64,000 bases of DNA from Iocasia fonsfrigidae (GTDB taxonomy: Bacteria > Bacillota > Halanaerobiia > Halanaerobiales > DTU029). Below the pieces are notes generated by a model, which made no database searches, was not told the origin of the DNA, and worked only from the letters and a program-made list of their open reading frames with translations. How positions within the stretch are numbered: the first letter of the stretch is position 1; the number at the start of each line of letters is the position of its first letter. The position numbers were made by a program, and so were the translations under genes. Where the stretch lies: the NCBI RefSeq assembly GCF_017751145.1, contig NZ_CP046640.1, positions 1,964,137-2,028,136 of the forward strand, given 5' to 3'. Positions 3,877 to 48,662 of this stretch are shown here, in pieces.

Positions 3877-6552
3877 ATGAGTAAGGAATATAACTACGAA
3901 TTTGCGATACTGGAAGAAAAATTAACACAAGAGGAGAGATCTGACAAGAGGAAGATAGCTGGTAGAGAAAATGATGCTGCATTACAGGTAGAGGAGTTAA
4001 TAAAAAAGGGAAAAAATGCCTTAATGAAAATGGTTAGACTTGATCAGGACCAGATTGATTATATAGTCAAAGAGATGGCTATGGCGGGTCTAGCCAATCA
4101 TATGAAACTGGCTAAACTTGCTGTAAATGAGACAGGTAAGGGTGTTTATGAGGATAAAATAGTGAAAAACCTATTTGCTACAGAATATATATATCATAGT
4201 ATTAAGTATATAAAAACTGTTGGTGTTATTGATGAAAATCAAGAAGAGGATTATTATGAGATCGCAGAACCGGTAGGTGTTGTTGCTGGTATAACACCTG
4301 TTACTAACCCTACCTCTACTACATTATTTAAATGTCTGATTGCTATTAAAGCACGAAATCCAATTATATTTGCTTTTCATCCTGGTTCACAGCAATGTAG
4401 TGTTGAATCAGCCCAGGTAATGAGGGAGGCAGCTGTTAGAGCTGGGGCACCGATAGATTGTATCCAGTGGATTGAAAAACCTTCTATAGAGGCGACCCAG
4501 TTTTTAATGAAAAATGATGGTATATCTTTAATATTGGCAACAGGTGGTTCATCTATGGTAAAGGCTGCCTATAGTGCGGGAAAACCTGCTCTAGGGGTAG
4601 GTCCTGGTAATGTCCCCTGTTATATTGAAAAAACAGCTGATATAAAACGTGCTGTTACTGATTTGATTTTATCTAAAACCTTTGATAATGGAATGATCTG
4701 TGCTTCAGAACAAGCTGTTATTATAGATGATGAAGTATATGAAGATGTGACGGCATATATGCAAAAACTCGGCTGTTATTTTGTTAATGAAAATGAACTA
4801 ACGAGATTAGAGGATATTGCTATTAATAAGGAAAAAGAAGCAATGAATCCACAAATAGTTGGGCAATCTGCCTATAATATAGCCAGCATGGCAGGTATAG
4901 ATGTTCCTCAAGATACAAAAATTCTTGTAGCAGAACTGGCTGGGGTTGGCCCTGATTACCCCTTATCCCGGGAAAAACTAAGCCCGATACTGGCCTGTTT
5001 TCGGGTCAGTGGTTATAAAGAAGGGATAGAACGGTCCATAGAGATGGTTAATTTTGGTGGTTCAGGTCATTCAGCAGTTATTCATTCTAGTGATGAAATG
5101 GTAATTGAAGAGTTTGCTGAAAGGGTTAACACTGGCCGTTTGATAACAAACCAGCCATCCAGCCATGGTGCTATTGGTGATCTCTATAATACAACAATGC
5201 CGTCCCTTACTTTGGGCTGTGGTTCCTTTGGAAGAAATAGTACTACAGCAAATATTACTGTAGTAAACCTGATTAATAAAAAAAGGGTAGCGAAAAGAAG
5301 GTATAATATGCAGTGGATTAAAATACCAGAGAAAATCTATTTTCAACCTGGTTCAGTGCAGTATCTGGCTAAAATGCCTGATATTTCACGGGCCTTTATT
5401 GTAACAGATAAGACCATGACAGAATTTGGTTATGTAAATAAAGCCCTTTATCACCTCCGCAAGAGAGATGGTAGGAATTATGTCCATTCTGAAATTTTTG
5501 ATGAGGTTGAACCTGACCCTACTGTACAGACAGTTGAAATGGGTGTGGAAGCTATTAATACTTTTAAGCCTGATGTAATTATTGCCCTGGGTGGTGGTTC
5601 AGTAATAGATGCTGCTAAGGCTATGTGGCTGTTTTATGAACACCCGGAAACCGATTTTGCTGATTTGCGGATGAAATTTATGGATATCCGCAAAAGGGTT
5701 TTTAAGTATCCAGAATTAGGCAAAAGAGCAAAATTAGTTGCCATACCGACTACATCTGGAACTGGTTCAGAGGTGACTTCTTTTACAGTAATTACAGACC
5801 CAACCAACGAAACAAAATATCCACTAGCAGATTATGAATTGACCCCTGATGTTGCCATCATTGACCCTGATTTTGTTCAGACCTTACCTGCCAGTGTAAC
5901 CGCAGATACAGGGCTTGATGTCTTAACACATGCTATTGAGGCATATGTATCGGTGATGGCCTCTGATTATACTGATGGTCTGGCCATGAAAGCTATCCAA
6001 CTGTGTTTTGATTATTTACCGCAGGCATATAGAAATGGTGAAAACCAGGAAGCACGGGAAAAGATGCATAATGCCTCCTGTATTGCAGGGATGGCTTTTA
6101 CCAATGCCTTTCTGGGAATAAATCATAGTTTAGCCCATAAACTCGGTGGTGAATTCCATATTCCCCACGGCAGGGCAAATGCCATTCTATTACCCCATGT
6201 AATCAGTTATAATGCCTCTAGACCTACCAAGTTTAATTCTTTTCCAAAATACGAGTATTATATTGCTGATGAGAAATACTCAGAGATAGTAAAATACCTG
6301 GGTTTACCCTGTAGTAATACCCATCAAAATATTGGGTGTTTAATCCATAATATAATTGAACTATGTAAGGAACTTGATATGCCACTTTCAATTAGAGAAT
6401 GTGGTATAGCAGAAGATGAATTTATGGGGGTTGTTGATGAATTAGCAGATAAAGCCTTTGAAGACCAGTGTACAACTGCTAATCCAAGAATGCCTCTGGT
6501 AGAAGAATTGAAAGAGATCTATATCAGAGCATACCATGGGTATCAGGGATGA
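3877..6552 (+). CDS. adhE: Bifunctional acetaldehyde-CoA/alcohol dehydrogenase AdhE
   Basis: 891 residues, the same length as Escherichia coli AdhE. The N-terminal aldehyde dehydrogenase half (about 1-450) has the catalytic cysteine C275 in MICASEQAV and the nucleotide-binding ALGVGPGN region. The C-terminal half (about 480-891) is an iron-dependent alcohol dehydrogenase with GGGSVIDAAKAMW and the metal ligands in GLDVLTHAIEAY and HSLAHKLGGEFHIPHG. It reduces acetyl-CoA to ethanol in two NADH-dependent steps and normally assembles into long spirosomes. With Pta and AckA in this window it gives the fermentative ethanol/acetate branch. Start: ATG after GAAAGGGGG. Monocistronic, bounded by terminators on both sides. 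Confidence 0.97.
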   Translation: MSKEYNYEFAILEEKLTQEERSDKRKIAGRENDAALQVEELIKKGKNALMKMVRLDQDQIDYIVKEMAMAGLANHMKLAKLAVNETGKGVYEDKIVKNLFATEYIYHSIKYIKTVGVIDENQEEDYYEIAEPVGVVAGITPVTNPTSTTLFKCLIAIKARNPIIFAFHPGSQQCSVESAQVMREAAVRAGAPIDCIQWIEKPSIEATQFLMKNDGISLILATGGSSMVKAAYSAGKPALGVGPGNVPCYIEKTADIKRAVTDLILSKTFDNGMICASEQAVIIDDEVYEDVTAYMQKLGCYFVNENELTRLEDIAINKEKEAMNPQIVGQSAYNIASMAGIDVPQDTKILVAELAGVGPDYPLSREKLSPILACFRVSGYKEGIERSIEMVNFGGSGHSAVIHSSDEMVIEEFAERVNTGRLITNQPSSHGAIGDLYNTTMPSLTLGCGSFGRNSTTANITVVNLINKKRVAKRRYNMQWIKIPEKIYFQPGSVQYLAKMPDISRAFIVTDKTMTEFGYVNKALYHLRKRDGRNYVHSEIFDEVEPDPTVQTVEMGVEAINTFKPDVIIALGGGSVIDAAKAMWLFYEHPETDFADLRMKFMDIRKRVFKYPELGKRAKLVAIPTTSGTGSEVTSFTVITDPTNETKYPLADYELTPDVAIIDPDFVQTLPASVTADTGLDVLTHAIEAYVSVMASDYTDGLAMKAIQLCFDYLPQAYRNGENQEAREKMHNASCIAGMAFTNAFLGINHSLAHKLGGEFHIPHGRANAILLPHVISYNASRPTKFNSFPKYEYYIADEKYSEIVKYLGLPCSNTHQNIGCLIHNIIELCKELDMPLSIRECGIAEDEFMGVVDELADKAFEDQCTTANPRMPLVEELKEIYIRAYHGYQG

Positions 6553-6584
6553 ATGGACTATAATATTATTATAGATTTTTAAAC

Positions 6585-6615
6585 AAGGCCTTCTAAGAAA
6601 TTAGAGGGTCTTTTT
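6585..6615 (+). terminator. Terminator after adhE
   Basis: Stem AAGGCCTTCTAA / TTAGAGGGTCTT with two G-T pairs and a short loop, running into TTTTT. Confidence 0.75.
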
Positions 6616-6821
6616 GCTTATATTTATATGTTTTGTTTCTATAGCCAGGAAAAAAATAAAAGGAATTTCAAATTATTAATTGAAATATTATAAATATACA
6701 AAAATAGATTTTACTTTTGAGGAATTTTTTAATAAAATACTGTTATTAAGTGTTATAATATTATCTATTAATTATAATTACTATTATTTGATATTTCGTT
6801 TGGAATAATTGGAGGGTAATT

Positions 6822-8204
6822 ATGAAGCAAAGTAGTCTATTGATTATTGATGATGATAATGGCTTGCGGACCAGTTTAGCTGCTTTTCTAGGGAAAAATA
6901 ATTATAAGATTATTACTGCTAAAAATGGCGAAGAGGGTATAAAACAGGTAGAAACTCATGACTTTGATCTGGTATTACTTGATATACGTATGCCTGGTAT
7001 GGATGGAATAACTGCCCTTAAAAGAATTAAAAACCTATCTCCTTATGTTAATGTGATTGTAATAACTGGCTTTGGGAGTGTTGAAAGTGCGGTTGAGGCA
7101 ATGAAAGAAGGGGCACTCGATTATATTACTAAACCATTTAATCTCTCTGAACTTAAAGAAAAGATTGAAAAATACCTGAGAATAGAATATTTAGTTATTA
7201 AGAATAAAATGGCTCAGGAAAATGAAGAGAAGGAAGAAAAAGTAACAGGGTTTAATGATATAATAGGGAAAAGTTCTGAAATGCAGGATATATATAAATT
7301 AATAAAAAAAATAGCTCCCAGTGATGTGACTGTTTTGTTACTTGGTGAAAGTGGTGTAGGTAAAGAAATGATTGCTAAAGCCATCTATCAAAACAGTCAA
7401 AGAAAAGAAGGGCCGTTTGTAAAACTGAACTGTGCAGCAATACCAGAACATTTACTGGAATCTGAACTTTTTGGCTTTGAAAAAGGGGCCTTTACTGGTG
7501 CCAGTCAACAAAAAAAAGGATTGTTTGAACTTGCTAATAATGGAACAATTTTTCTTGACGAAATTGGTGATATGAGTTTAGCAACACAATCCAAGGTTTT
7601 AAGGATATTACAGGAAGGAGAATTCCAAAGAGTTGGAGGTGTAAAAGCCCTGAAAGCTAATGTCAGGGTTATTGCTGCAACTAATATTGATATTCAACAG
7701 GCAATAGACAGAGGAGATTTTCGTGAGGATTTATATTACCGACTTAATGTTGTAAAAATTAATATACCACCACTAAGAGAAAGAAGAGAAGATATTCCAT
7801 TACTAGTAAATGAATTTATTGATTATTATAATAAAAAATATCACAAGAAAGTTCAAGGTGTGACACCAGATGCACTCCGATTACTAATGTGCTATGAGTG
7901 GCCGGGGAATGTCCGTGAATTAAAGAATGTCTGTGAACAGGTTATAGTTCTTACTGAAACTGATATAATTACAGCTGATGACCTGCCAGATGAGATTAAG
8001 GATAAAGGATTAAATTTTGATTCCAGCAATTCCCCTCAGACCCTTAAAGATATTACTAAAAATCTCACGACAGAGATTGAAAAGAAAATAATTCTTGATA
8101 CCCTGGAAGAAAACGATTGGAATCGTAATGACACTGCAGAAAAATTAGGAATAACACCCCGTACACTATATAACAAAATTAAAGACTATAGCTTAGATAA
8201 ATGA
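6822..8204 (+). CDS. NtrC-family sigma-54-dependent response regulator
   Basis: 460 residues in the classical three-domain order. Receiver domain 1-120 with phosphoacceptor D54 in LLDIRMPGMDG; AAA+ domain about 145-385 with Walker A GESGVGKE (175-182) and an intact GAFTGA loop (222-227) that contacts sigma-54; and a Fis-type helix-turn-helix at about 418-457 (DTAEKLGITPRTLYNKIK). It should bind upstream dyads and open a sigma-54 promoter when phosphorylated. It overlaps the sensor kinase gene by four bases (ATGA). A -24/-12 promoter and two tandem dyads lie just past the kinase, before the sugar operon, which is its probable target. Upstream, ATTTCAA (6665-6671) and TTGAAAT (6680-6686) form an inverted repeat that might mark autoregulation. 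Confidence 0.95.
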   Translation: MKQSSLLIIDDDNGLRTSLAAFLGKNNYKIITAKNGEEGIKQVETHDFDLVLLDIRMPGMDGITALKRIKNLSPYVNVIVITGFGSVESAVEAMKEGALDYITKPFNLSELKEKIEKYLRIEYLVIKNKMAQENEEKEEKVTGFNDIIGKSSEMQDIYKLIKKIAPSDVTVLLLGESGVGKEMIAKAIYQNSQRKEGPFVKLNCAAIPEHLLESELFGFEKGAFTGASQQKKGLFELANNGTIFLDEIGDMSLATQSKVLRILQEGEFQRVGGVKALKANVRVIAATNIDIQQAIDRGDFREDLYYRLNVVKINIPPLRERREDIPLLVNEFIDYYNKKYHKKVQGVTPDALRLLMCYEWPGNVRELKNVCEQVIVLTETDIITADDLPDEIKDKGLNFDSSNSPQTLKDITKNLTTEIEKKIILDTLEENDWNRNDTAEKLGITPRTLYNKIKDYSLDK

Positions 8205-15637: not shown

Positions 15638-16507
15638 TTGTTAGTAAGTTTAAAAGAAATTTTAGCAAGGTCAATTGAGGAAAAATATGCTGTTGGGGCT
15701 TTTAATGTAACAAATCACCAAATGGTTGAGGCTATAATAGAAGCAGCTGAAAGTACGGATGTACCAGTTATTATTAATATTGCAGAAGTCCACTTTAAGT
15801 ACCTTGATTTAAAAAAATTTTTACCCTATCTAAAAAACAGAATAGAGGCTTCTTTTGTCCCAATAGCACTTCATCTTGATCACGGCTTAAGTTTTGAAAC
15901 TGTTATAAAAGCGATCAGGTTGGGATTTTCATCGGTTATGATTGATGCTTCAAGTCTTCCATTTGAAGAAAATGTGGCTTTAACAGCCAAGGTTGTTGAA
16001 GCGGCCCATGCAGCAGGGATCAGTGTTGAGGCGGAGTTAGGGCATGTTGCTGGTGGTGAAGGTAATTTAGATGGTGGAACTGAGGTTAACCGTGATACCT
16101 TTACACATCCCGAAGAAGCAAAAAAGTATGTTGCCAAAACTGGTATAGATGCCCTGGCAGTTGCCATTGGAACTGTACATGGACCATATAAAGGTCAACC
16201 AGAACTAGATTTTGATTTATTGGTAAAGTTAAGAAAAGAAGTAGATATACCACTTGTATTACACGGTGGTTCAGGTTTAAATGATAGTGATTTTCGTAAA
16301 GCCATTGAATTAGGTATCAATAAGGTTAATTTTTATACCCAAAATTCTATTCAGGCAGTTGAAGCAATATATAGACAAATACGGGATACGAAAGGAAAGA
16401 TAGGTTTTCCAGAACTTACTCTAACTGCACAGTCAGAAATACTAAAACAAACAAAAAAACAAATAGAGTTATTTGGAACAAAATCACTTAATATAAAAAA
16501 TAAATAA
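15638..16507 (+). CDS. Class II ketose-phosphate aldolase (Fba/GatY type)
   Basis: 289 residues from a TTG start, one base after the kinase stop, with AGGGGGG as ribosome site. Zinc-dependent aldolase fold with HLDHG (donor D81, zinc ligand H82), the active-site loop VEAELGHVAGGEGN, AVAIGTVHGPYKG and LVLHGGSGL with a further zinc histidine, then NKVNFYT for phosphate binding. Family members cleave fructose- or tagatose-1,6-bisphosphate, and some act on other ketose phosphates, yielding dihydroxyacetone phosphate. It ends the catabolic operon and is followed by a strong terminator. Confidence 0.92.
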   Translation: MLVSLKEILARSIEEKYAVGAFNVTNHQMVEAIIEAAESTDVPVIINIAEVHFKYLDLKKFLPYLKNRIEASFVPIALHLDHGLSFETVIKAIRLGFSSVMIDASSLPFEENVALTAKVVEAAHAAGISVEAELGHVAGGEGNLDGGTEVNRDTFTHPEEAKKYVAKTGIDALAVAIGTVHGPYKGQPELDFDLLVKLRKEVDIPLVLHGGSGLNDSDFRKAIELGINKVNFYTQNSIQAVEAIYRQIRDTKGKIGFPELTLTAQSEILKQTKKQIELFGTKSLNIKNK

Positions 16508-16521
16508 TGATGTGATTTTTT

Positions 16522-16569
16522 CAACAGTGTTTTTCTATGTAAGCAGAGAAAAACACTGTTGTTTTTTTT
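16522..16569 (+). terminator. Terminator of the sugar operon
   Basis: Perfect 15-bp stem CAACAGTGTTTTTCT (16522-16536) / AGAAAAACACTGTTG (16547-16561), 10-base loop, then a run of eight T. Confidence 0.93.
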
Positions 16570-16640
16570 GAAATGGAATAATTTAGTCTATTCTTTGAAA
16601 ATTAGGGAGAAAAAATATAATTAAAGAATATAAATGTATA

Positions 16641-16669
16641 TTGACAACATACCTAACGTTTGGTATAAT
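16641..16669 (+). promoter_or_regulatory. tetR promoter with embedded operator (copy 1)
   Basis: Consensus sigma-A promoter TTGACA (16641-16646), 17-bp spacer, TATAAT (16664-16669). The near-palindrome ATACCTAACGTTTGGTAT (16649-16666) fills the spacer, so a bound repressor would block polymerase. The same motif recurs at 17362, 17751 and 19390. Confidence 0.85.
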
Positions 16670-16699
16670 ATCTATATAATTAATTTGGAGGAAATAATA

Positions 16700-17284
16700 A
16701 TGAGTACTAAAGACATTCTTATTCAAGAAGCCAGTAAACAATTTCTTAAAAAAGGTTATGAAAAAACCAGTATTAATGATATTACTGCCGCGTGTAATAT
16801 TACTAAAGGGGCTTTTTACCACCACTTTAATAATAAAGATGAAATATTTATGATTGTTTTTGATAATATTTGTGCTGAAATAAAGGAATGGTATCTTAAT
16901 AGGTTGAAAAACAAATCCTCAATTGAACAATTTATTAAATCATTTTTTAATTATGATCAATATATAAAAAATAGTAATTTTTTTAAAAATATTAATGTCA
17001 ATATTTATACTGTGATTGCTGATGGCGTTAGAAGGTTTCCTGAATTGAAGTCAAAAATTTATACAGCTCTCTATAGTATTTTACCTATCTTTAAGCAAAG
17101 GATAAAAACTGCTCAAAAACAAGGAGTTCTTAAAGAGGATTTTGATCCAGAAGTTTTTGCCTTTATAATTATCAATCTTATTGAAGGTGGTATGTTTATA
17201 TCTACACTTACCGGTGATAATGTATCAATTGATAATAAATGTGAAATGGTTGCAAACACAATCTGGAATTTAATAAAAAAATAG
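16700..17284 (+). CDS. TetR/AcrR-family transcriptional regulator
   Basis: 194 residues from ATG 16700 behind GGAGG; an in-frame ATG at 16634 lies upstream of the promoter and is rejected. The N-terminal helix-turn-helix is typical (TSINDITAACNITKGAFYHHFNNKDEIF). The ligand-binding C-terminal domain ends in IWNLIKK. The operator inside its own promoter implies autorepression, and three further operator copies downstream suggest it also controls the Lnt-like gene and the MMPL export operon. Parts of its 3' end are repeated as remnants at 17449-17718 and 19311-19349. The ligand is unknown, perhaps a hydrophobic compound or lipid. Confidence 0.93.
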   Translation: MSTKDILIQEASKQFLKKGYEKTSINDITAACNITKGAFYHHFNNKDEIFMIVFDNICAEIKEWYLNRLKNKSSIEQFIKSFFNYDQYIKNSNFFKNINVNIYTVIADGVRRFPELKSKIYTALYSILPIFKQRIKTAQKQGVLKEDFDPEVFAFIIINLIEGGMFISTLTGDNVSIDNKCEMVANTIWNLIKK

Positions 17285-17352
17285 ATACAGGGGTTTATAA
17301 AATATTTGGAATTGAAGATGGTATGTTAATATGCAAAAAGAGGAAAAATAAT

Positions 17353-17382
17353 TTGATAAACATACTGACCGTTTAGTATAAT
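17353..17382 (+). promoter_or_regulatory. Operator copy 2 within a promoter-like sequence
   Basis: TTGATA (17353-17358), 18-bp spacer, TATAAT (17377-17382), with ATACTGACCGTTTAGTAT (17362-17379) overlapping it as in copy 1. It now precedes only the decayed tetR copy. Confidence 0.7.
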
Positions 17383-17448
17383 AACAAAGTAAATGATAGG
17401 CTCGTAATCTATATAAATGATTGTAGAAATAGATTATTTATATTGTTT

Positions 17449-17718
17449 AAAGAATCTCTGACAGACCTATATATGTATAAATTATTTAATAGTATTATAC
17501 ACATCTTTAAAGAAAGGTTAAAGACCGCACTGCAATAGGGGTAGATTGAGACAGATTTTAATTTAGAGGTCTTTTCCTTTATTTTTATTAATTTTATAGA
17601 AGGTACTTTCTTTATTTCTACTCTTATGGGTGATGAACAATCACTTGATAAAATAGCTGAAATGATTGCCAGTAAAATCTGGGATCTAATCAAAAGGCAA
17701 CAGGAAGGTTGTGATTAA
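17449..17718 (+). pseudogene. Remnant of a second tetR gene (C-terminal half)
   Basis: This frame reads KESLTDLYMYKLFNSIIHIF, then FKERLKTALQ, two stop codons, then TDFNLEVFSFIFINFIEG, TFFISTLMGDEQSLDK and IASKIWDLIKR. It matches the second half of the intact upstream regulator (FKQRIKTAQKQ, DFDPEVFAFIIINLIEGG, ISTLTGD, IWNLIKK). The DNA-binding N-terminal half is gone. It is a degenerate tandem copy; the operator copy just upstream is still recognisable. This accounts for most of the gap between tetR and the Lnt-like gene. Confidence 0.82.
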
Positions 17719-17750
17719 AAATATAACAGTAAAAAAATTTTATAAACAAC

Positions 17751-17768
17751 ATACCTGACGGTAGGTAT
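17751..17768 (+). promoter_or_regulatory. TetR operator copy 3, before the Lnt-like gene
   Basis: ATACCTGACGGTAGGTAT, the most symmetric copy of the motif (ATACC-N8-GGTAT). It lies 54 bases before the Lnt-like start codon and overlaps a possible -10 TATTGT at 17766. Confidence 0.72.
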
Positions 17769-17821
17769 TGTTATTGATTAGTACAGACATACATTAGTCC
17801 TTAAAGAGGAGATTAATAATT

Positions 17822-19309
17822 ATGACAATAAGAAAGTACAACTCTATAATACTATTTATTACAGGATTCTTCCTATTCATGTTCACAAGAAGAAGTGAGC
17901 TATTTCCAACAATTCAAATAATGATAATAATTGCGCCAATTTTTATTTTGCGATTCATAAGGATTCAAAGTACTAAAAAAGGAATACTTTTGACATTCCT
18001 GGGATTCTTTTTAAGTTTGAACATAGCTCTCTTTGGACTTTTTGATCTGAGTGGTTCCTTAATGGAGATATTATTTAATACCGTTAGAAGCACAATTATT
18101 GCCCTAATGTATTTTGTACCTTATATGGTTGATAGACTCATATACCCAAAATTTAAAAAATATCCAATAATATCTTCTTTAATATTTCCGGTATCTGTAA
18201 CAGCAATTATGTTTTTATTTTCATTGGAAGGTCCAATAGATGGAACTGAAGCCAAGACCATTTTCTCATATGGTCCATTAATTTTTCAGCAGATTAATTC
18301 AATAACAGGACTTTGGGGATTCATTTTCATATTTTCCTGGATTGCTACAACTATCAATAATCTATGGGAATATAATTTTGAGATAAAGAAAAGTAAAACA
18401 GTACTAGTTGTTTTTGCTTCAATTTTTTTAGTCAGCTTGTTTTTTGGAACCATTAAGGTCAATACTACAAATCAATATGAAAATACAGTAAAAATTGCTG
18501 CAATAATTCTACTTCCAGAAGACGGGAAAGCCGTTTCAATGGAAAAAATAATAGAAGAAAGAAATACATCATCATTTAATAAAAGGTTGCTTAAAATTGA
18601 ACAATTAACAAAGACCGCATCCCAGAAAGGTGCAAAAATAATTTCATTTCAAGAGTTTGCTATGTTAATTAATGATGAAGATCAAGATTCATTAAGGAAG
18701 GAATACAAAAGAATAGCAAAAGAAAATAATGTATATTTAAGTATTACTTACGGATATTTCTCCAAAAAAGAAAAAGGTGAAAATAAACATCTTCTTATTA
18801 ATAATCAAGGAGAAATACTATTAGATTACACTAAAAGATATCTTTTAGGATTTGGAGATATTGGAGAGACTGCTGTCTTCAAAAAGGGTGTAGAAATCAT
18901 TCAATATACAGATACTCCTTATGGGCGACTTGCGATTTCAATTTGTAAAGATATGAATTACCCAGCTTACATAAGACAGGCAGGAGAAGCAGACGTAGAT
19001 ATAATGCTAAATCCTTCATACGATTTTCCGAAAAGCACATCACCTTCTTATTACGATAGGGCAATTGAAAATGGTTTTTCAATCATAAGACCAACCTACA
19101 ATGGGATAACTTATATGGAGGATTATAACGGAGAAATCATTGCTATGATGGATTCAGATAAAACAGAAACAGGTATTTTGTACGCAGATCTTCCAATTAA
19201 AGGGGTCGAAACAATTTATTATAAAATTGGAGACTTGCTTGGGTGGCTTTCTTTATTTGGACTTTTTGTATTAATCTTTATTAGTATTAGATTAAAGAAC
19301 AACTCCTAA
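17822..19309 (+). CDS. Lnt-like membrane carbon-nitrogen hydrolase
   Basis: 495 residues, near the 512 of Escherichia coli apolipoprotein N-acyltransferase. About six hydrophobic segments fill residues 1-215, followed by a nitrilase-fold domain (about 225-465) with a Glu-Lys-Cys triad at E278 (FQEFAML), K338 (DYTKRYLLGFGD) and C375 (SICKDMNYP); compare E267, K335 and C387 in the E. coli enzyme. A final membrane segment follows. The domain order equals Lnt, which N-acylates lipoproteins at the outer face of the inner membrane, but the regions around the triad diverge, so the acceptor may differ. It is inserted between two tetR remnants and preceded by the TetR operator. Confidence 0.75.
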   Translation: MTIRKYNSIILFITGFFLFMFTRRSELFPTIQIMIIIAPIFILRFIRIQSTKKGILLTFLGFFLSLNIALFGLFDLSGSLMEILFNTVRSTIIALMYFVPYMVDRLIYPKFKKYPIISSLIFPVSVTAIMFLFSLEGPIDGTEAKTIFSYGPLIFQQINSITGLWGFIFIFSWIATTINNLWEYNFEIKKSKTVLVVFASIFLVSLFFGTIKVNTTNQYENTVKIAAIILLPEDGKAVSMEKIIEERNTSSFNKRLLKIEQLTKTASQKGAKIISFQEFAMLINDEDQDSLRKEYKRIAKENNVYLSITYGYFSKKEKGENKHLLINNQGEILLDYTKRYLLGFGDIGETAVFKKGVEIIQYTDTPYGRLAISICKDMNYPAYIRQAGEADVDIMLNPSYDFPKSTSPSYYDRAIENGFSIIRPTYNGITYMEDYNGEIIAMMDSDKTETGILYADLPIKGVETIYYKIGDLLGWLSLFGLFVLIFISIRLKNNS

Positions 19310-19310
19310 T

Positions 19311-19349
19311 TTGATTGCCAGTACAATCTGGGGTTTAATAAAAAAATAG
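19311..19349 (+). pseudogene. Third tetR remnant (last 12 codons)
   Basis: Right after the Lnt-like stop, this frame reads LIASTIWGLIKK and a stop, equivalent to the last residues of tetR (TIWNLIKK) and of the 17.5-kb remnant (IASKIWDLIKR). It is a scar of repeated duplication; an operator copy again follows it. Confidence 0.7.
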
Positions 19350-19389
19350 GAGGTGATAAATAAATTTCGAAGACAAATATCCATTAACC

Positions 19390-19407
19390 ATACCTAACGT
19401 TCAGTAT
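19390..19407 (+). promoter_or_regulatory. TetR operator copy 4, before the MMPL operon
   Basis: ATACCTAACGTTCAGTAT, identical to copy 1 over its first 12 bases, overlapping a possible -10 TATTGT (19405-19410). It lies 51 bases before the transporter start codon. Confidence 0.75.
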
Positions 19408-19457
19408 TGTTAATGCGATTTTCCGATTTAGATAAAATAATGATAGGAGGAGATGGT

Positions 19458-22130
19458 ATGATAGATAACCTTTTTAAATGCTTAGCAAGAATAACTACCA
19501 AAAAGCCGGTTACAATATTACTTATTACAGGTATTATAACCGTTATTATGTTAATCCTCGCATCACATTTAAACTTGGAATTAAGTTGGGTGGCTCTGGC
19601 CCCCAAAGGGGACCCTTCACAATTTGAATATAAAAAGATATTAAATAACTATCCCTCTGCCAGTAAAATTTATATTACTATAAGAGATAAAAAAGGGAAT
19701 CCTGAGGAAGCTGCTAGAGTTGCAGCGGAGAGATTAAAAAAATTGGGTAAATATGTAGACAATGTAGAATATAAAGCTAATATAGAATATATGCTTAATA
19801 ATGGTATGTTGCTTTATAAAATAAAGGATCAGGAAAATATTACTTCAATACTAAAAGACCCTAATTTCACAGGATTTCTAAAAAACCTGAATGATTTATA
19901 TGATAGGAAATATAGGGAGAATAGTAATAATATTGAAGATGATAAAGATGATTTGGCTAGATCCTTCTGGGGATTAAAAGAGTTTTTACAGATATATGAT
20001 CAATCTCTGCAAAATGGTATAACAAATAAAGCATATGATAGAGGAATTAATCAATTATTAATTGGTGACCCATATATACGTTCTATTGGTGGGAATACAT
20101 TACTAATGACAGTTCAACCAACCTTTGGCGTTATGGATTATCAGAATCTCAAACCAGGGGTAAATGCTATTGAAAATGAGATTAAATCAATAGAAAAGGA
20201 ATATCCAAATTATCAATATGGTTTAACAGGTATGCATGTAATTAGTAGAGATGAACTGGTCACAAGTTTCAGGGATTCCAATATAGCTATGACTATTGGT
20301 TTTGTTTTGATAATTATAATCTTGATAATAGCATTTAAAATGTGGCTTTCACCTTTGTTATCTATTATTCCGCTTATAGTTGGGATTATTTGGGACATGG
20401 GATTCACGACAATTATTATTGGTAGATTAAATATTATGACTGTCTTTACTGCAGCTATGTTAATTGGTCTAGGGATTGATTTTTCAGTACATATTTTAAG
20501 CGGCTATACTGAGGCCAGGAGTAATAATAAGTCTGCGTATCAGGCTATCTATTATTCTTTACAGAAGACAGGTCCGGGAATATTAACTGGAGCACTTACT
20601 ACCTCAGCAGCATTCTTTGCTTTGACAATCAGCTCTTTAGGTCTGTTAGTAGAACTTGGTATTACTATGGGTATAGGTATTTTAACTATTATGCTGGCTG
20701 TTTTCTTTATTCTACCCTCTATTTTATATCTATGGGTGAATAAGCAAGGGAAAACAAAAACTGTTAAGCATGGAAGTTTTAAGATAATTGGTAGGTCAGC
20801 AGTATTTTTTAACCGATGGAAATATCCAGTTATGATACTGATATTATTAATAAGCATTTTGATGGGATGGTATGGTGAGAAGACCAATGTATATTTGAAT
20901 CTCAAAAAAATAGAGCCTCATGGTCTGGATTCCATTAAAGTTATGGATGATATTTCAGATAAATACGATATGAGTAATGATGCGGTTATGTATACGACTA
21001 ATAATCTGCTGGATACCTATAATTTAGCAGAAGAGTTAGATGATAAGCCCCAGGTTGATACTGTAAGTACGATAACTGATTATCTACCACCTGAAAGCAT
21101 TCAAAAAAAACGATTAAAAGAGTTAAGGAAAACAGGCATAAATGCTTTCATCGATAATCCACCGGTCTATCATAATATTGATAAAGGAGAATTGCTAAAG
21201 CAGTTTGAGCGTTTGAATGACAATATGATTGAAATGGGGCAGTTGTCTTTTATGGCCGGTATTGATGAAATTGTTACTGTTACTGATCAAATTACAGGAA
21301 CTCCCGATCAGGCAGGAATTCTACCTGCTATAATCAATAGGCTTAAAGAAGAAGGGTATAAGCATGAATATTTAAGTGATTCAGCGGCTTTGTTTTATCG
21401 GCTTTTTTCTGAGAAAAGTAAGATTATGAAAGTTTCAAGTTTGCTAACTATAGTAGATTTACCTGAAGATATCAGAAATAGGTTCCTGAATAAAAAGGGG
21501 GATTCATTTCTGACCAGTGTTTATGCAAAGGGGAACCTCTGGGATAATATCCAAAAACCCTATGGCAAAAATTTTATTTATATGTTAAGAGATAAGGTTC
21601 CCCAGATAACAGGCTCACCAATATTTTTACGCATTCTATATGACACATTATATAGTGAGGTGCCTGAAGCCTTGTTATTAGTAGGTATTACAGTTTTAAT
21701 ACTTTTATTATTCCATTTTAAATCTATTAAATTGGCTTTGATTACTATTTTACCACTCATAGTAGCTATGATAGTAACAGTTGGTGCAGTACATTTATTA
21801 AAAACTGAACTGGATATCTTCAGTGTACTGGCTTTTCCTCTTATTATAGGGATAGGTATTGATTATGGCGTACACTTTGTTCACCATCTGAAAATCAGGG
21901 GAGAGGGCTTAGAGGAATCCTTCAGTAGTGTTGGTCGAGCAGTATTTTTGACTACAATAACAACCATGGCTTCATTCGGAACACTAATGATTGCTAAATA
22001 TAGGGGAATTTTCCGAATGGGCGTAACTATGTTTATAGGAGTAGCTTTATGTTTTATCTTTGTTATTCTATTGATACCTATCTTTACTGAAAACAAACAG
22101 GAAAATAGGGAAGAAAAAAACAAATTTTAA
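19458..22130 (+). CDS. MMPL/RND-superfamily exporter (Patched/HpnN-like)
   Basis: 890 residues from ATG 19458 behind AGGAGG; an upstream in-frame TTG at 19407 overlaps the operator. Twelve membrane segments fall in two halves: a single N-terminal helix, a ~200-residue extracytoplasmic loop, then five helices with IGLGIDFSVHILSGYTEA. The second half repeats this with IGIGIDYGVHFVHHL. These GxGxD motifs carry the proton-relay aspartates of MMPL-type pumps. Relatives move lipids or hopanoids from the inner membrane. The two following genes encode a LolA-like periplasmic protein and a predicted outer-membrane barrel, so the three could form a complete lipid route under TetR control. Confidence 0.92.
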   Translation: MIDNLFKCLARITTKKPVTILLITGIITVIMLILASHLNLELSWVALAPKGDPSQFEYKKILNNYPSASKIYITIRDKKGNPEEAARVAAERLKKLGKYVDNVEYKANIEYMLNNGMLLYKIKDQENITSILKDPNFTGFLKNLNDLYDRKYRENSNNIEDDKDDLARSFWGLKEFLQIYDQSLQNGITNKAYDRGINQLLIGDPYIRSIGGNTLLMTVQPTFGVMDYQNLKPGVNAIENEIKSIEKEYPNYQYGLTGMHVISRDELVTSFRDSNIAMTIGFVLIIIILIIAFKMWLSPLLSIIPLIVGIIWDMGFTTIIIGRLNIMTVFTAAMLIGLGIDFSVHILSGYTEARSNNKSAYQAIYYSLQKTGPGILTGALTTSAAFFALTISSLGLLVELGITMGIGILTIMLAVFFILPSILYLWVNKQGKTKTVKHGSFKIIGRSAVFFNRWKYPVMILILLISILMGWYGEKTNVYLNLKKIEPHGLDSIKVMDDISDKYDMSNDAVMYTTNNLLDTYNLAEELDDKPQVDTVSTITDYLPPESIQKKRLKELRKTGINAFIDNPPVYHNIDKGELLKQFERLNDNMIEMGQLSFMAGIDEIVTVTDQITGTPDQAGILPAIINRLKEEGYKHEYLSDSAALFYRLFSEKSKIMKVSSLLTIVDLPEDIRNRFLNKKGDSFLTSVYAKGNLWDNIQKPYGKNFIYMLRDKVPQITGSPIFLRILYDTLYSEVPEALLLVGITVLILLLFHFKSIKLALITILPLIVAMIVTVGAVHLLKTELDIFSVLAFPLIIGIGIDYGVHFVHHLKIRGEGLEESFSSVGRAVFLTTITTMASFGTLMIAKYRGIFRMGVTMFIGVALCFIFVILLIPIFTENKQENREEKNKF

Positions 22131-22146: not shown

Positions 22147-22905
22147 ATGAAATTAAATTTAAGAGTATTTAGTCTGATACTGATATTAGTTTTTGCTATG
22201 GGAGCAATGGCTACGGCTGCAGATATTAGCGGTAATGAAATAATGAAAAAAGCAGATGAGAATATGAATTATGGTAGTTACAAGGGGAAAGGTAAAATGA
22301 TAATTCATACAACTAGTGGTGATGAAAGGGTTTTAAAGATGGAGATGTGGGGCCAGGGAACTGAAGAATCAATTATGAAATACTATGAACCTCAACGAGT
22401 AAATGGTGTTACATTTCTTTTCCTTCATAAAAATATTTGGTCATATTTCCCCAGAACCGGTCGGGTACGCCATTTAGGAGAACATGTGAAGAATCAGAAG
22501 ATGATGGGTAGTTCATTTAGCTATGATGATTTTAATGGTAAAATCTTTGATGATTATCAGTCAAAATTAATCAAAGAAGAGGAATTTAACAATGAAAAAT
22601 GTTATTTTGTAAAAGGTGTGGCTAAAAACGCTCAGGCAGCTTATGATAGTTTTGAAGCCTGGGTTGCAGAAGATGGATTTAGACCACTAAAGGTTAATTA
22701 TTTTAAGGATAACCAGCAGGTAAAGGTAATGAACACTGAAAGTTTTCAGAGAATTAATGGTGAATTACGTCCCAGAAAAATTGTAATGAAAGACTTAGAG
22801 GATAATAATACGACTAGCTTTGAATATTTAGAGATGAAGACCGGAATTAAATTCAGACCTGATTTCTTTAATGAAAGAAACCTGAAAAGAATATCCCAGA
22901 GTTAA
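22147..22905 (+). CDS. LolA-like outer membrane lipoprotein-sorting protein
   Basis: 252 residues: signal peptide (1-25, ending ATA-AD), then an eleven-stranded LolA/LppX-like fold recognised by KMEMWGQGTEESIMKYYEP, NGVTFLFLHKNIWSYFPRTG and MMGSSFSYDDF, the hallmark of the family named outer-membrane lipoprotein-sorting protein. Such proteins hold acyl chains in a hydrophobic cup while crossing the periplasm. Start ATG lies behind AGGAGG, 16 bases after the MMPL gene. Its partners in many genomes are MMPL pumps or FtsX permeases; both types occur here, the latter as a remnant at 24.2 kb. Confidence 0.9.
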   Translation: MKLNLRVFSLILILVFAMGAMATAADISGNEIMKKADENMNYGSYKGKGKMIIHTTSGDERVLKMEMWGQGTEESIMKYYEPQRVNGVTFLFLHKNIWSYFPRTGRVRHLGEHVKNQKMMGSSFSYDDFNGKIFDDYQSKLIKEEEFNNEKCYFVKGVAKNAQAAYDSFEAWVAEDGFRPLKVNYFKDNQQVKVMNTESFQRINGELRPRKIVMKDLEDNNTTSFEYLEMKTGIKFRPDFFNERNLKRISQS

Positions 22906-22921
22906 GGAGGCCATAATTAGG

Positions 22922-24118
22922 ATGAGAAATAGAGTAATAGTAGTATTATTAATAATACTACTCTTTATCTCACTACAAATTAGGGCAGCTGATTTTTCTT
23001 ATAAAGCTATGTTTGAATCTTATCTGGAAGACTACCGGGAAGATGGGGAAGAGTATTTTACTTCATTGAATGAGTTTAATCTAAAAATTGATACAGGAAC
23101 TTTTAATTATACGTTGCATCTTGATGGTAGTGTACTGTTTAATGACAAGGGGTTTAAGGATTTAAATGAGCTTTCAATAAAGTGTAAATCAAAATTAAAT
23201 AAATTATTCCTGAATTGCTGGTTTACAGAGGGGCAGCTTAAATTTGGTAAACAGCGAATAGCCTGGGGTTCTGGTTATTTCTTTAATCCTACAGACTTGA
23301 TTAATCCCCTAAAAGAAGATGATAAAGGGGAGATAAATCCCCGTGATGCTACTGAAGGGGTATATGGCAGATATTATATAGGGGCTGCTACCCTGGAAGC
23401 TGTAGTGATAACTGATTTTCAACCCCTGGGACCGGATACAGATAAAGAAGCTGCTAATCTTGCACAACAATACAATCCGTTATTAACAGGGGAAGTAGAT
23501 TTACCAGAAAACTTTTCTGAGGAAAGGGAACTTGCTGTAAGGTATTCAACACTAATTAATATGTTTGACTTTTCCCTGTTATATTATCAGGGTAGGGAAG
23601 ATTATCCAGTAGTAGAGCTTAACCCAGCATCAGCTAAACTTTTACTTAAACATCCCCGAAAAGATGTCATAGGAATTAATTTATCAGGTACAGTCGGTGA
23701 TATTGCTGTCTGGAGTGAAGCCAGCTATTCCAATCCTGAAATAGGGGACAATTACTTACAGTCAATTATCGGGATGGATTATACTTTTGAAAATGGGATA
23801 CATCTACTGGGAGAATATTACTACGATAATAGTTTTTCTAATTTTGTTTCTGACCAGGAAGTTGATATAAAAGATTTTATTTGTCTTGAGGCTGATTATA
23901 ATTTGACTGATTTAATAAAAATAGAAGCTGATTATTTAACTCCTATTAATTCAGATTATTATCAGATATATGGAAAACTAACTTATCCTATCCGACAAAA
24001 TCTTGAACTAGAGACTGGCTTTAATAAAAGTGGCAATAAAGAGGGAACAATTTTTGAAAATAATAGTTTTTTCTCTATAAAAGATAAAATATACTTTAAA
24101 ATAAAATATTATTTTTAA
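22922..24118 (+). CDS. Predicted outer-membrane beta-barrel (DUF1302-like)
   Basis: 398 residues with a signal peptide (1-22, ending IRA-AD) and a body of alternating polar/hydrophobic strands. A conserved core GKQRIAWGSGYFFNPTDLIN resembles DUF1302-type barrels found with MMPL pumps in Gram-negative bacteria. The protein ends in an aromatic phenylalanine (KIYFKIKYYF), the usual signal for barrel assembly. Third gene of the TetR-controlled operon, 16 bases after the LolA-like gene with AAGGAGG between them. It is probably the outer-membrane exit or receptor for the transported lipid; no sequence proof of the cargo. Confidence 0.75.
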   Translation: MRNRVIVVLLIILLFISLQIRAADFSYKAMFESYLEDYREDGEEYFTSLNEFNLKIDTGTFNYTLHLDGSVLFNDKGFKDLNELSIKCKSKLNKLFLNCWFTEGQLKFGKQRIAWGSGYFFNPTDLINPLKEDDKGEINPRDATEGVYGRYYIGAATLEAVVITDFQPLGPDTDKEAANLAQQYNPLLTGEVDLPENFSEERELAVRYSTLINMFDFSLLYYQGREDYPVVELNPASAKLLLKHPRKDVIGINLSGTVGDIAVWSEASYSNPEIGDNYLQSIIGMDYTFENGIHLLGEYYYDNSFSNFVSDQEVDIKDFICLEADYNLTDLIKIEADYLTPINSDYYQIYGKLTYPIRQNLELETGFNKSGNKEGTIFENNSFFSIKDKIYFKIKYYF

Positions 24119-47746: not shown

Positions 47747-48662
47747 AACAGCCTTTCTTTTCTCTGGACAGGGTTCACAATATGTTGGTATGGGGCTTGA
47801 ACTTATAAATAATTACCCTCCTGGTTTACAAATCATGGAACAGGCCGAAGAATATCTCGCTCTTCCATTAAAGAAAATGTGTTTTGAAGGACCAGCAGAA
47901 AAATTAAACATCACTAAGAACACTCAACCGGCTATTTTTACAATTAGTTATATTATCTATAATTTTCTTATGGAAAATGCTCTAAAGCCTTCTGCTGTAG
48001 CAGGACATAGTTTAGGTGAATATAGTGCTTTAGCGTCTGCCAAATCTTTTTCTTTTGAAGATGGTTTAAGACTGGTTAGGCAGCGTGGAATTTTAATGGA
48101 TGAAGCAATGCCTGTTGGTTCAGGAACTATGGCTGCTGTTATTGGACTAAATAGTAATTTGATTACAGAGATATGTACTAATATTGAAGGGGTCTGTGAA
48201 GTTGCTAATTACAATTCCCCACAACAGACTGTTATCTCTGGTGAAGAAAAAGCCATTAATGAGGCTGTAGAAAGTTTAAAAAAATTAGGCGCTAAAAAAG
48301 TTGTTAAACTTGATGTTAGTGGACCATTTCATTCATCATTAATGAAACCGGCCAGAGATGAATTTGCCAAGATTGTTAACGACATAGAATTTAAGGAACC
48401 AGTCTATCCAGTGATTGCCAATGTGACTGCTGATTATATAAAAGATGCTAAAGAAATAAAGGGACTGCTACTGGAACAAATAACAGGTAGTGTATACTGG
48501 GTAGATAGTATAAAAAGATTAATAGATGATGGTTATAATACCTTTATAGAGGTAGGACCAGGTAGGGTATTAAAGGGTTTAATGCGTAGCATAGACCGTT
48601 CGGTTGATGCCTTTAATGTTGAGAGTTTTAAAGATTATGAGAAATTAATTAAAAAATTATAA
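47736..48662 (+). CDS. fabD: Malonyl-CoA:ACP transacylase
   Basis: 308 residues overlapping fabK by 11 bases. FSGQGSQYVGMG at the start, nucleophile S92 in GHSLGEYSAL, and the histidine in SGPFHSSLM. Loads malonyl groups onto ACP for the condensing enzymes of the same operon. Confidence 0.97.
   Translation: MKRKTAFLFSGQGSQYVGMGLELINNYPPGLQIMEQAEEYLALPLKKMCFEGPAEKLNITKNTQPAIFTISYIIYNFLMENALKPSAVAGHSLGEYSALASAKSFSFEDGLRLVRQRGILMDEAMPVGSGTMAAVIGLNSNLITEICTNIEGVCEVANYNSPQQTVISGEEKAINEAVESLKKLGAKKVVKLDVSGPFHSSLMKPARDEFAKIVNDIEFKEPVYPVIANVTADYIKDAKEIKGLLLEQITGSVYWVDSIKRLIDDGYNTFIEVGPGRVLKGLMRSIDRSVDAFNVESFKDYEKLIKKL

Follow-up and report, generated by a model that had tools for sequence, protein, structure and literature searches.

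An operator–tetR array with two decayed tetR copies in Iocasia fonsfrigidae and its probable growth by duplication

We analysed a 64,000-nucleotide (nt) stretch of the genome of Iocasia fonsfrigidae (contig NZ_CP046640.1, positions 1,964,137 to 2,028,136), here called the window, with emphasis on window positions 16641–19407, where a gene for a TetR-family regulator (tetR) stands among four near-palindromes of the form ATACC-N8-GGTAT, termed operators 1–4, and two tetR remnants. All elements lie on the plus strand, in the order operator 1, tetR, operator 2, remnant 1, operator 3, a gene for a membrane protein with a carbon-nitrogen hydrolase (CN-hydrolase) domain, remnant 2 and operator 4. Downstream of operator 4 follow genes for an MMPL transporter, a LolA-like protein and a probable outer-membrane protein.

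Four operators, one intact tetR and two tetR remnants

The features of the stretch are as follows.

16641..16669, + strand: tetR promoter around operator 1, TTGACA-17-TATAAT, 12/12 consensus letters
16649..16666, + strand: operator 1, ATACCTAACGTTTGGTAT, 16/18 letters palindromic, 0 mismatches to ATACC-N8-GGTAT
16700..17284, + strand: intact tetR, 194 amino acids (aa), Pfam TetR_N 3e-14 and TetR_C_13 8.2e-08
17353..17382, + strand: promoter-like TTGATA-18-TATAAT around operator 2, 11/12 consensus letters, no intact gene behind it
17362..17379, + strand: operator 2, ATACTGACCGTTTAGTAT, 2 mismatches to the same pattern
~17473..17718, + strand: tetR remnant 1, 75 codons aligning to tetR residues 120–194, two in-frame TAG codons
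17751..17768, + strand: operator 3, ATACCTGACGGTAGGTAT, 0 mismatches, preceding the CN-hydrolase gene
17822..19309, + strand: membrane protein with C-terminal CN-hydrolase domain ('Lnt-like'), 495 aa, PF00795 2.3e-24
19312..19349, + strand: tetR remnant 2, 3'-terminal codons and stop, 2 nt past the CN-hydrolase stop codon
19390..19407, + strand: operator 4, ATACCTAACGTTCAGTAT, 1 mismatch, preceding the MMPL operon

The bare pattern proves little by itself, since it is only weakly enriched in this A+T-rich DNA: allowing up to two mismatches, it has 49 matches in the window against 31.9 expected, and 2 of 100 shuffles reach 49. The full 18-mers are specific. Specifically, with operator 1 as the query, only the four operators have four mismatches or fewer in the window, the most diverged being operator 2 with four, in agreement with an earlier reading of the sequence alone (the sequence-only reading), which had picked out the same four sites. 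Furthermore, a 19-nt degenerate consensus of the operators matches the 3,926,493-base genome exactly at four places, all in this locus. With up to two mismatches it has 13, of which eight are the four operators on either strand and the remaining ones lie at genome positions 322760, 1624430, 1960831, 2183989 and 3388100; the reversed-pattern control gives one. Because the consensus was built from the four sites, these counts demonstrate uniqueness, with no further good sites in the genome, and carry no independent probability. Elsewhere in the window, two loose matches to the bare pattern, at 48494–48511 and 48538–48555 (2 and 1 mismatches), lie about 60 nt apart, and their inner letters are unlike those of the four operators.

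The intact gene encodes a TetR-family protein, scoring 53 bits against PF00440 (TetR_N; cut-off 24). The sequence-only reading had counted one intact and two decayed tetR copies and had named pairwise alignment in advance as the comparison by which this count could fail; both remnants do align with tetR. Remnant 1 is without about 119 codons, including the DNA-binding half, and 40 of its 75 residues are identical to those of tetR (E 1.3e-19). At the DNA level, 142 nt align without gaps at 75% identity, with a score of 182 that none of 1000 dinucleotide shuffles reaches (maximum 73). Remnant 2 is identical in 32 of 38 nt to positions 17247–17284, the 3' end of tetR, stop codon included; its scores against tetR (52; shuffle maximum 45) and against remnant 1 (56) are likewise reached by 0 of 1000 shuffles each. 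In addition, when the last 60 nt of tetR are used as the query, remnants 2 and 1 score 46 and 45, and the next match in the window scores 26. Combining significant alignments with disabling lesions, both remnants classify as tetR pseudogenes, and operators 2, 3 and 4 each stand after a tetR 3' end.

The stop-free end of remnant 1 (57 aa) has one match at E ≤ 0.01 in the 41 genomes searched, namely the adjacent tetR, at 56% identity; the next tetR in the same genome aligns over part of its length, with 30% identity. Among the sequences searched, tetR and remnant 1 thus group as sister copies. The start of remnant 1 was placed at 17473 because positions 17380–17472 show no similarity to tetR, 936 of 1000 shuffles aligning as well. 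A candidate third remnant between tetR and operator 2 (17285–17361) was rejected: its score is reached by 33 of 2000 and 17 of 1000 shuffles, and it is out of register, aligning to another part of tetR.

A promoter scan places operators 1 and 2 in the spacer between −35 and −10 hexamers, and a 39-nt stretch at operator 2 is 74% identical to its counterpart at operator 1. Operators 3 and 4 terminate in TATTGT at the position corresponding to the −10 element, and at operator 3 a weak TAAACA is visible by eye 17 nt upstream of TATTGT. The 20-nt downstream flanks fall into two pairs, operators 1 and 2 sharing 12/20 letters and operators 3 and 4 sharing 11/20, with 5–7 for the four mixed pairs; two local intergenic windows paired once at random would agree to this extent with a probability of about 0.010 (12/20) or 0.026 (11/20). 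This pairing suggests, tentatively, that tetR copies are preceded by one promoter type and effectors by another.

Genes behind operators 3 and 4 and the upstream border

The label 'Lnt-like', given to the CN-hydrolase gene by the sequence-only reading, describes the domains and does not establish the protein as an Lnt. Like Lnt, the protein has a membrane part and a C-terminal CN-hydrolase domain; unlike Lnt, it scores 31.2 bits against TIGR00546, below the cut-off of 132.9. A canonical Lnt (TIGR00546, 291.9 bits) is encoded at genome position C1:1918504-1919646, about 62 kb before the CN-hydrolase gene and outside the window, so that the CN-hydrolase protein is an additional protein. Its residues Glu278, Lys338 and Cys375, which we take to be the catalytic triad, are invariant in three sequences.

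Relatives of the CN-hydrolase protein that are 60–61% identical occur in a genome of the same family (G004) and in a distant genome of the phylum (G386), in both cases away from any tetR or operator. A wider contig collection yields 16 loci, from sources as distant as Maribacter, Prolixibacter, a Deltaproteobacterium, Marimonas and an ANME-2 archaeal bin; two of the 16 are probably the same contigs as these two matches. The operator motif is present at 0 of the 16 loci, a TetR lies close to the relative at one (L065, Calditrichia), where the operator is absent, and 16 proteins encoded beside the relatives at 12 of these loci include no recurrent partner. Such scattering over unrelated contexts supports insertion of the CN-hydrolase gene behind operator 3. 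At L065, the relative follows the end of an apparent RND-type pump gene and precedes a cluster of genes for a TetR, a probable outer-membrane protein and an ABC transporter. At L076 (Marispirochaeta), two CN-hydrolase membrane protein genes nearly adjoin, at 3998–5503 and 5926–7440.

Behind operator 4 lie three genes.

19458..22130, + strand: MMPL/RND transporter (HpnN/BstA-related), 890 aa, PF03176 1.1e-31
22147..22905, + strand: LolA-like outer-membrane lipoprotein-sorting protein, PF17131 1.4e-44
22922..24118, + strand: likely outer-membrane protein, weak DUF1302 match (PF06980 7.1e-4, below the gathering score)

The transporter belongs to the MMPL family (PF03176, 110.4 bits; cut-off 20.5) and falls below the cut-offs for HpnN (TIGR03480, 326.6 against 751.85, E 3e-97; NF052374, 196.1 against 1100) and for the BstA sterol transporter (NF045600, 173.3 against 1400). 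The locus resembles the HpnN/BstA lipid transporters (PMC10942540) in its MMPL architecture and in the periplasmic and probable outer-membrane partners encoded after the transporter; unlike them, its MMPL protein is below both cut-offs and its partner is LolA-like. The HpnN/BstA relationship suggests that the operon may export lipid across the envelope.

Among the 41 genomes, the closest MMPL relatives are 59% (G033) and 56% (G010) identical. At both loci (L046 and L047, respectively) a LolA-like gene comes after the MMPL gene, and upstream stands a TetR-like reading frame of a different kind, about 26 bp away in L046 and severed by the contig end in L047; TetR_N was confirmed for the G033 regulator only, and an operator of the type described here is found at neither locus. 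This suggests that the regulator of the MMPL–LolA-like operon may have been exchanged. Because another TetR accompanies the pair in these two genomes, the MMPL operon may be an original target, not a captured one. The proposal of the sequence-only reading that genes were captured behind each operator is therefore overstated: the gene at 17822 looks inserted and has relatives in unrelated contexts, but the MMPL gene may be the original effector, and operator 2 has only a remnant behind it.

Upstream of operator 1 lies one further feature.

16522..16561, + strand: A+T-rich hairpin with a T run, 18-nt inverted repeat with 94% complementarity and arms 4 nt apart

The hairpin is likely the terminator of an upstream sugar-metabolism operon, in which case the tetR unit starts downstream of it. 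It was missed by a terminator scan based on G+C content, which A+T-rich terminators escape. No Rfam family has a match within 16000–20000.

Relatives of the TetR and the G004 locus

In the order (38 genomes, including that of I. fonsfrigidae), only G004 passes 1e-13 besides the genome itself. Its TetR, the nearest within the order, is identical in 54 of 185 aligned residues (29%). The G004 locus (contig G004:C88) carries ATACCAACTGGTCGGTTT 12 nt before tetR and ATACCGACTAGATGGTAT between tetR and a gene for a 4Fe-4S protein. Both are operator-like sites of the form ATACC-N8-GGT(A/T)T, at L031 1471–1488 and 2138–2155 (5010 and 5677 in L084). Relative to the outer 18-bp motif, the first is one letter off and the second exact, at a TetR identity of just 29%.

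In a scan of fetched TetR loci with a 16-letter pattern (29 locus ids), the full outer 18-letter motif was found outside the I. fonsfrigidae locus in L031 only. In ten genomes, the 21-letter motif with one mismatch is not generally above its reversed control (G000 5/3, G003 5/7, G004 11/3), so that in other genomes a motif match by itself is not evidence; in G004 it counts because two sites flank a tetR that was found independently. The site at L031 2138 is one of two exact matches to the 21-letter motif in the G004 genome. With its operator–tetR–operator–effector order and a different effector, the G004 locus would have the expected look of an ancestral unit.

Models for the history of the array

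The sequence-only reading had explained the pattern by repeated duplication of an operator–tetR cassette, and this is still the best explanation: in the 41 genomes remnant 1 matches only the neighbouring tetR, and a tetR 3' end precedes operators 2–4. We consider it probable that an autoregulated cassette was duplicated in tandem and partly decayed, and that the locus is the resulting local TetR repressor circuit. The ancestral unit would have been operator/promoter, tetR, operator/promoter and effector gene, the last possibly the MMPL gene, and would have undergone two or more rounds of tandem copying. Of the tetR copies, one was then kept intact, a second may have lost its DNA-binding half and gained stops to become remnant 1, and a third may have been mostly replaced by the CN-hydrolase gene behind a duplicated operator, leaving its 3' end as remnant 2, with four operators retained throughout. 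The surviving repressor would bind the 18-bp palindromes as a dimer or dimers. Because operators 1 and 2 fill the −35/−10 spacer, binding there would block RNA polymerase, and release by a ligand, probably a hydrophobic one, would switch on tetR, the CN-hydrolase gene and the operon of MMPL, LolA-like and outer-membrane protein genes together.

Several observations weigh against this history. The number and order of the duplications are read from the 38-nt stub of remnant 2, which is short, and from short flanks; the promoter scan finds no consensus hexamers at operators 3 and 4, and the split into two promoter types comes from the 20-nt downstream flanks and is absent from the 20-nt upstream flanks, of which 1/3 share 13 letters, 2/3 share 12 and the remaining pairs 8 to 10. 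In the wider contig collection, no close relative of the TetR was confirmed among 50 pattern matches, and neither these contigs nor a phylum sample of 398 genomes contain a relative with an intermediate tetR–operator arrangement. The phylum sample yields, besides the genome itself, two distant genomes that pass 1e-14 (G278 and G324), whose TetRs (L062 and L063) outscore that of G004, are each followed by an ABC transporter gene and lack an operator of this kind nearby. At the G004 locus, the first site lies after the −10 element, not in the spacer, and the inner letters differ.

Remnant 1 is also just 53–56% identical to tetR, as would follow from an old split or from fast decay, and the counts of differences at the three codon positions (26, 15 and 29 over 75 codons) do not separate the two. 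The same two figures lend some weight to a history in which distinct tetR paralogues, one of them perhaps acquired from outside, once stood as an older tandem pair with a shared operator, and the redundant regulators decayed into the broken copies: the second codon positions are the least changed, hinting that both genes were once functional. We regard this as unlikely, since remnant 1 has no closer match in the 41 genomes than the tetR beside it and since the operators and their flanks are alike. An old duplication and an older paralogue pair differ mainly in age and source.

A related question is whether operator 2 is a relic of duplication or a selected repressor decoy or extra promoter feeding into the CN-hydrolase gene, a role that is compatible with the duplication history. 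An 11/12 promoter has been kept there despite the dead gene, and the only terminator-like match lies inside the CN-hydrolase gene, with none between operator 2 and that gene (in the same scan that misses A+T-rich terminators); the divergence of operator 2, the greatest of the four, argues the other way, and we think such a role rather improbable. It is quite improbable that short operator/promoter pieces with a tetR 3' end recombined before new genes and that a whole cassette was never in tandem. Remnant 2, the final 38 nt of tetR ahead of operator 4, is just the cargo expected of such a small piece; remnant 1, with 75 or more codons retained and, in front of it, an operator whose promoter flank is of the tetR type, needs a larger copied unit.

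If tandem duplication and decay did build the array, a bolder extension, to which we assign a low probability, is that operator–tetR–operator forms a self-spreading cassette in this bacterial family, which would duplicate in place, gain genes behind its second operator and shed the surplus regulator, with operator 2 kept as a decoy or feed-in promoter and G004 as a second instance. One repressor would then end up controlling a growing row of single-operator promoters.

Autoregulated local TetR repressors of the QacR, MtrR and AcrR kind are alike in TetR_N, in a palindrome over the own promoter and in a neighbouring exporter operon, and the solved relatives of this TetR by sequence include MtrR and QacR chains. 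Unlike these systems, the locus has four dispersed single operators over 2.8 kb and two tetR remnants. In LacI-family regulons, duplication of the transcription-factor gene is described as followed by gain of new regulated genes (PMC4052901); the locus is similar in pairing a regulator copy with a new target gene under a shared motif, and differs in being of the TetR family and in tandem, with decayed copies visible and old operators kept. Searches of an open-access library found no tandem tetR–operator array with decayed copies. Regulator copying with new targets is already known; dead copies and every operator readable in one place are, in our judgement, less common. That a regulon has grown because a regulator was copied with its operator and the extra regulator later lost is mostly deduced from end states; at this locus the dead copies and every operator persist together on one strand within 2.8 kb, and the genome shows no other such operator, so that the steps could be tested. 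The arrangement is also a hint that a CN-hydrolase membrane protein, possibly an acyltransferase, and an MMPL–LolA-like export operon are under common control in a diderm Firmicute.

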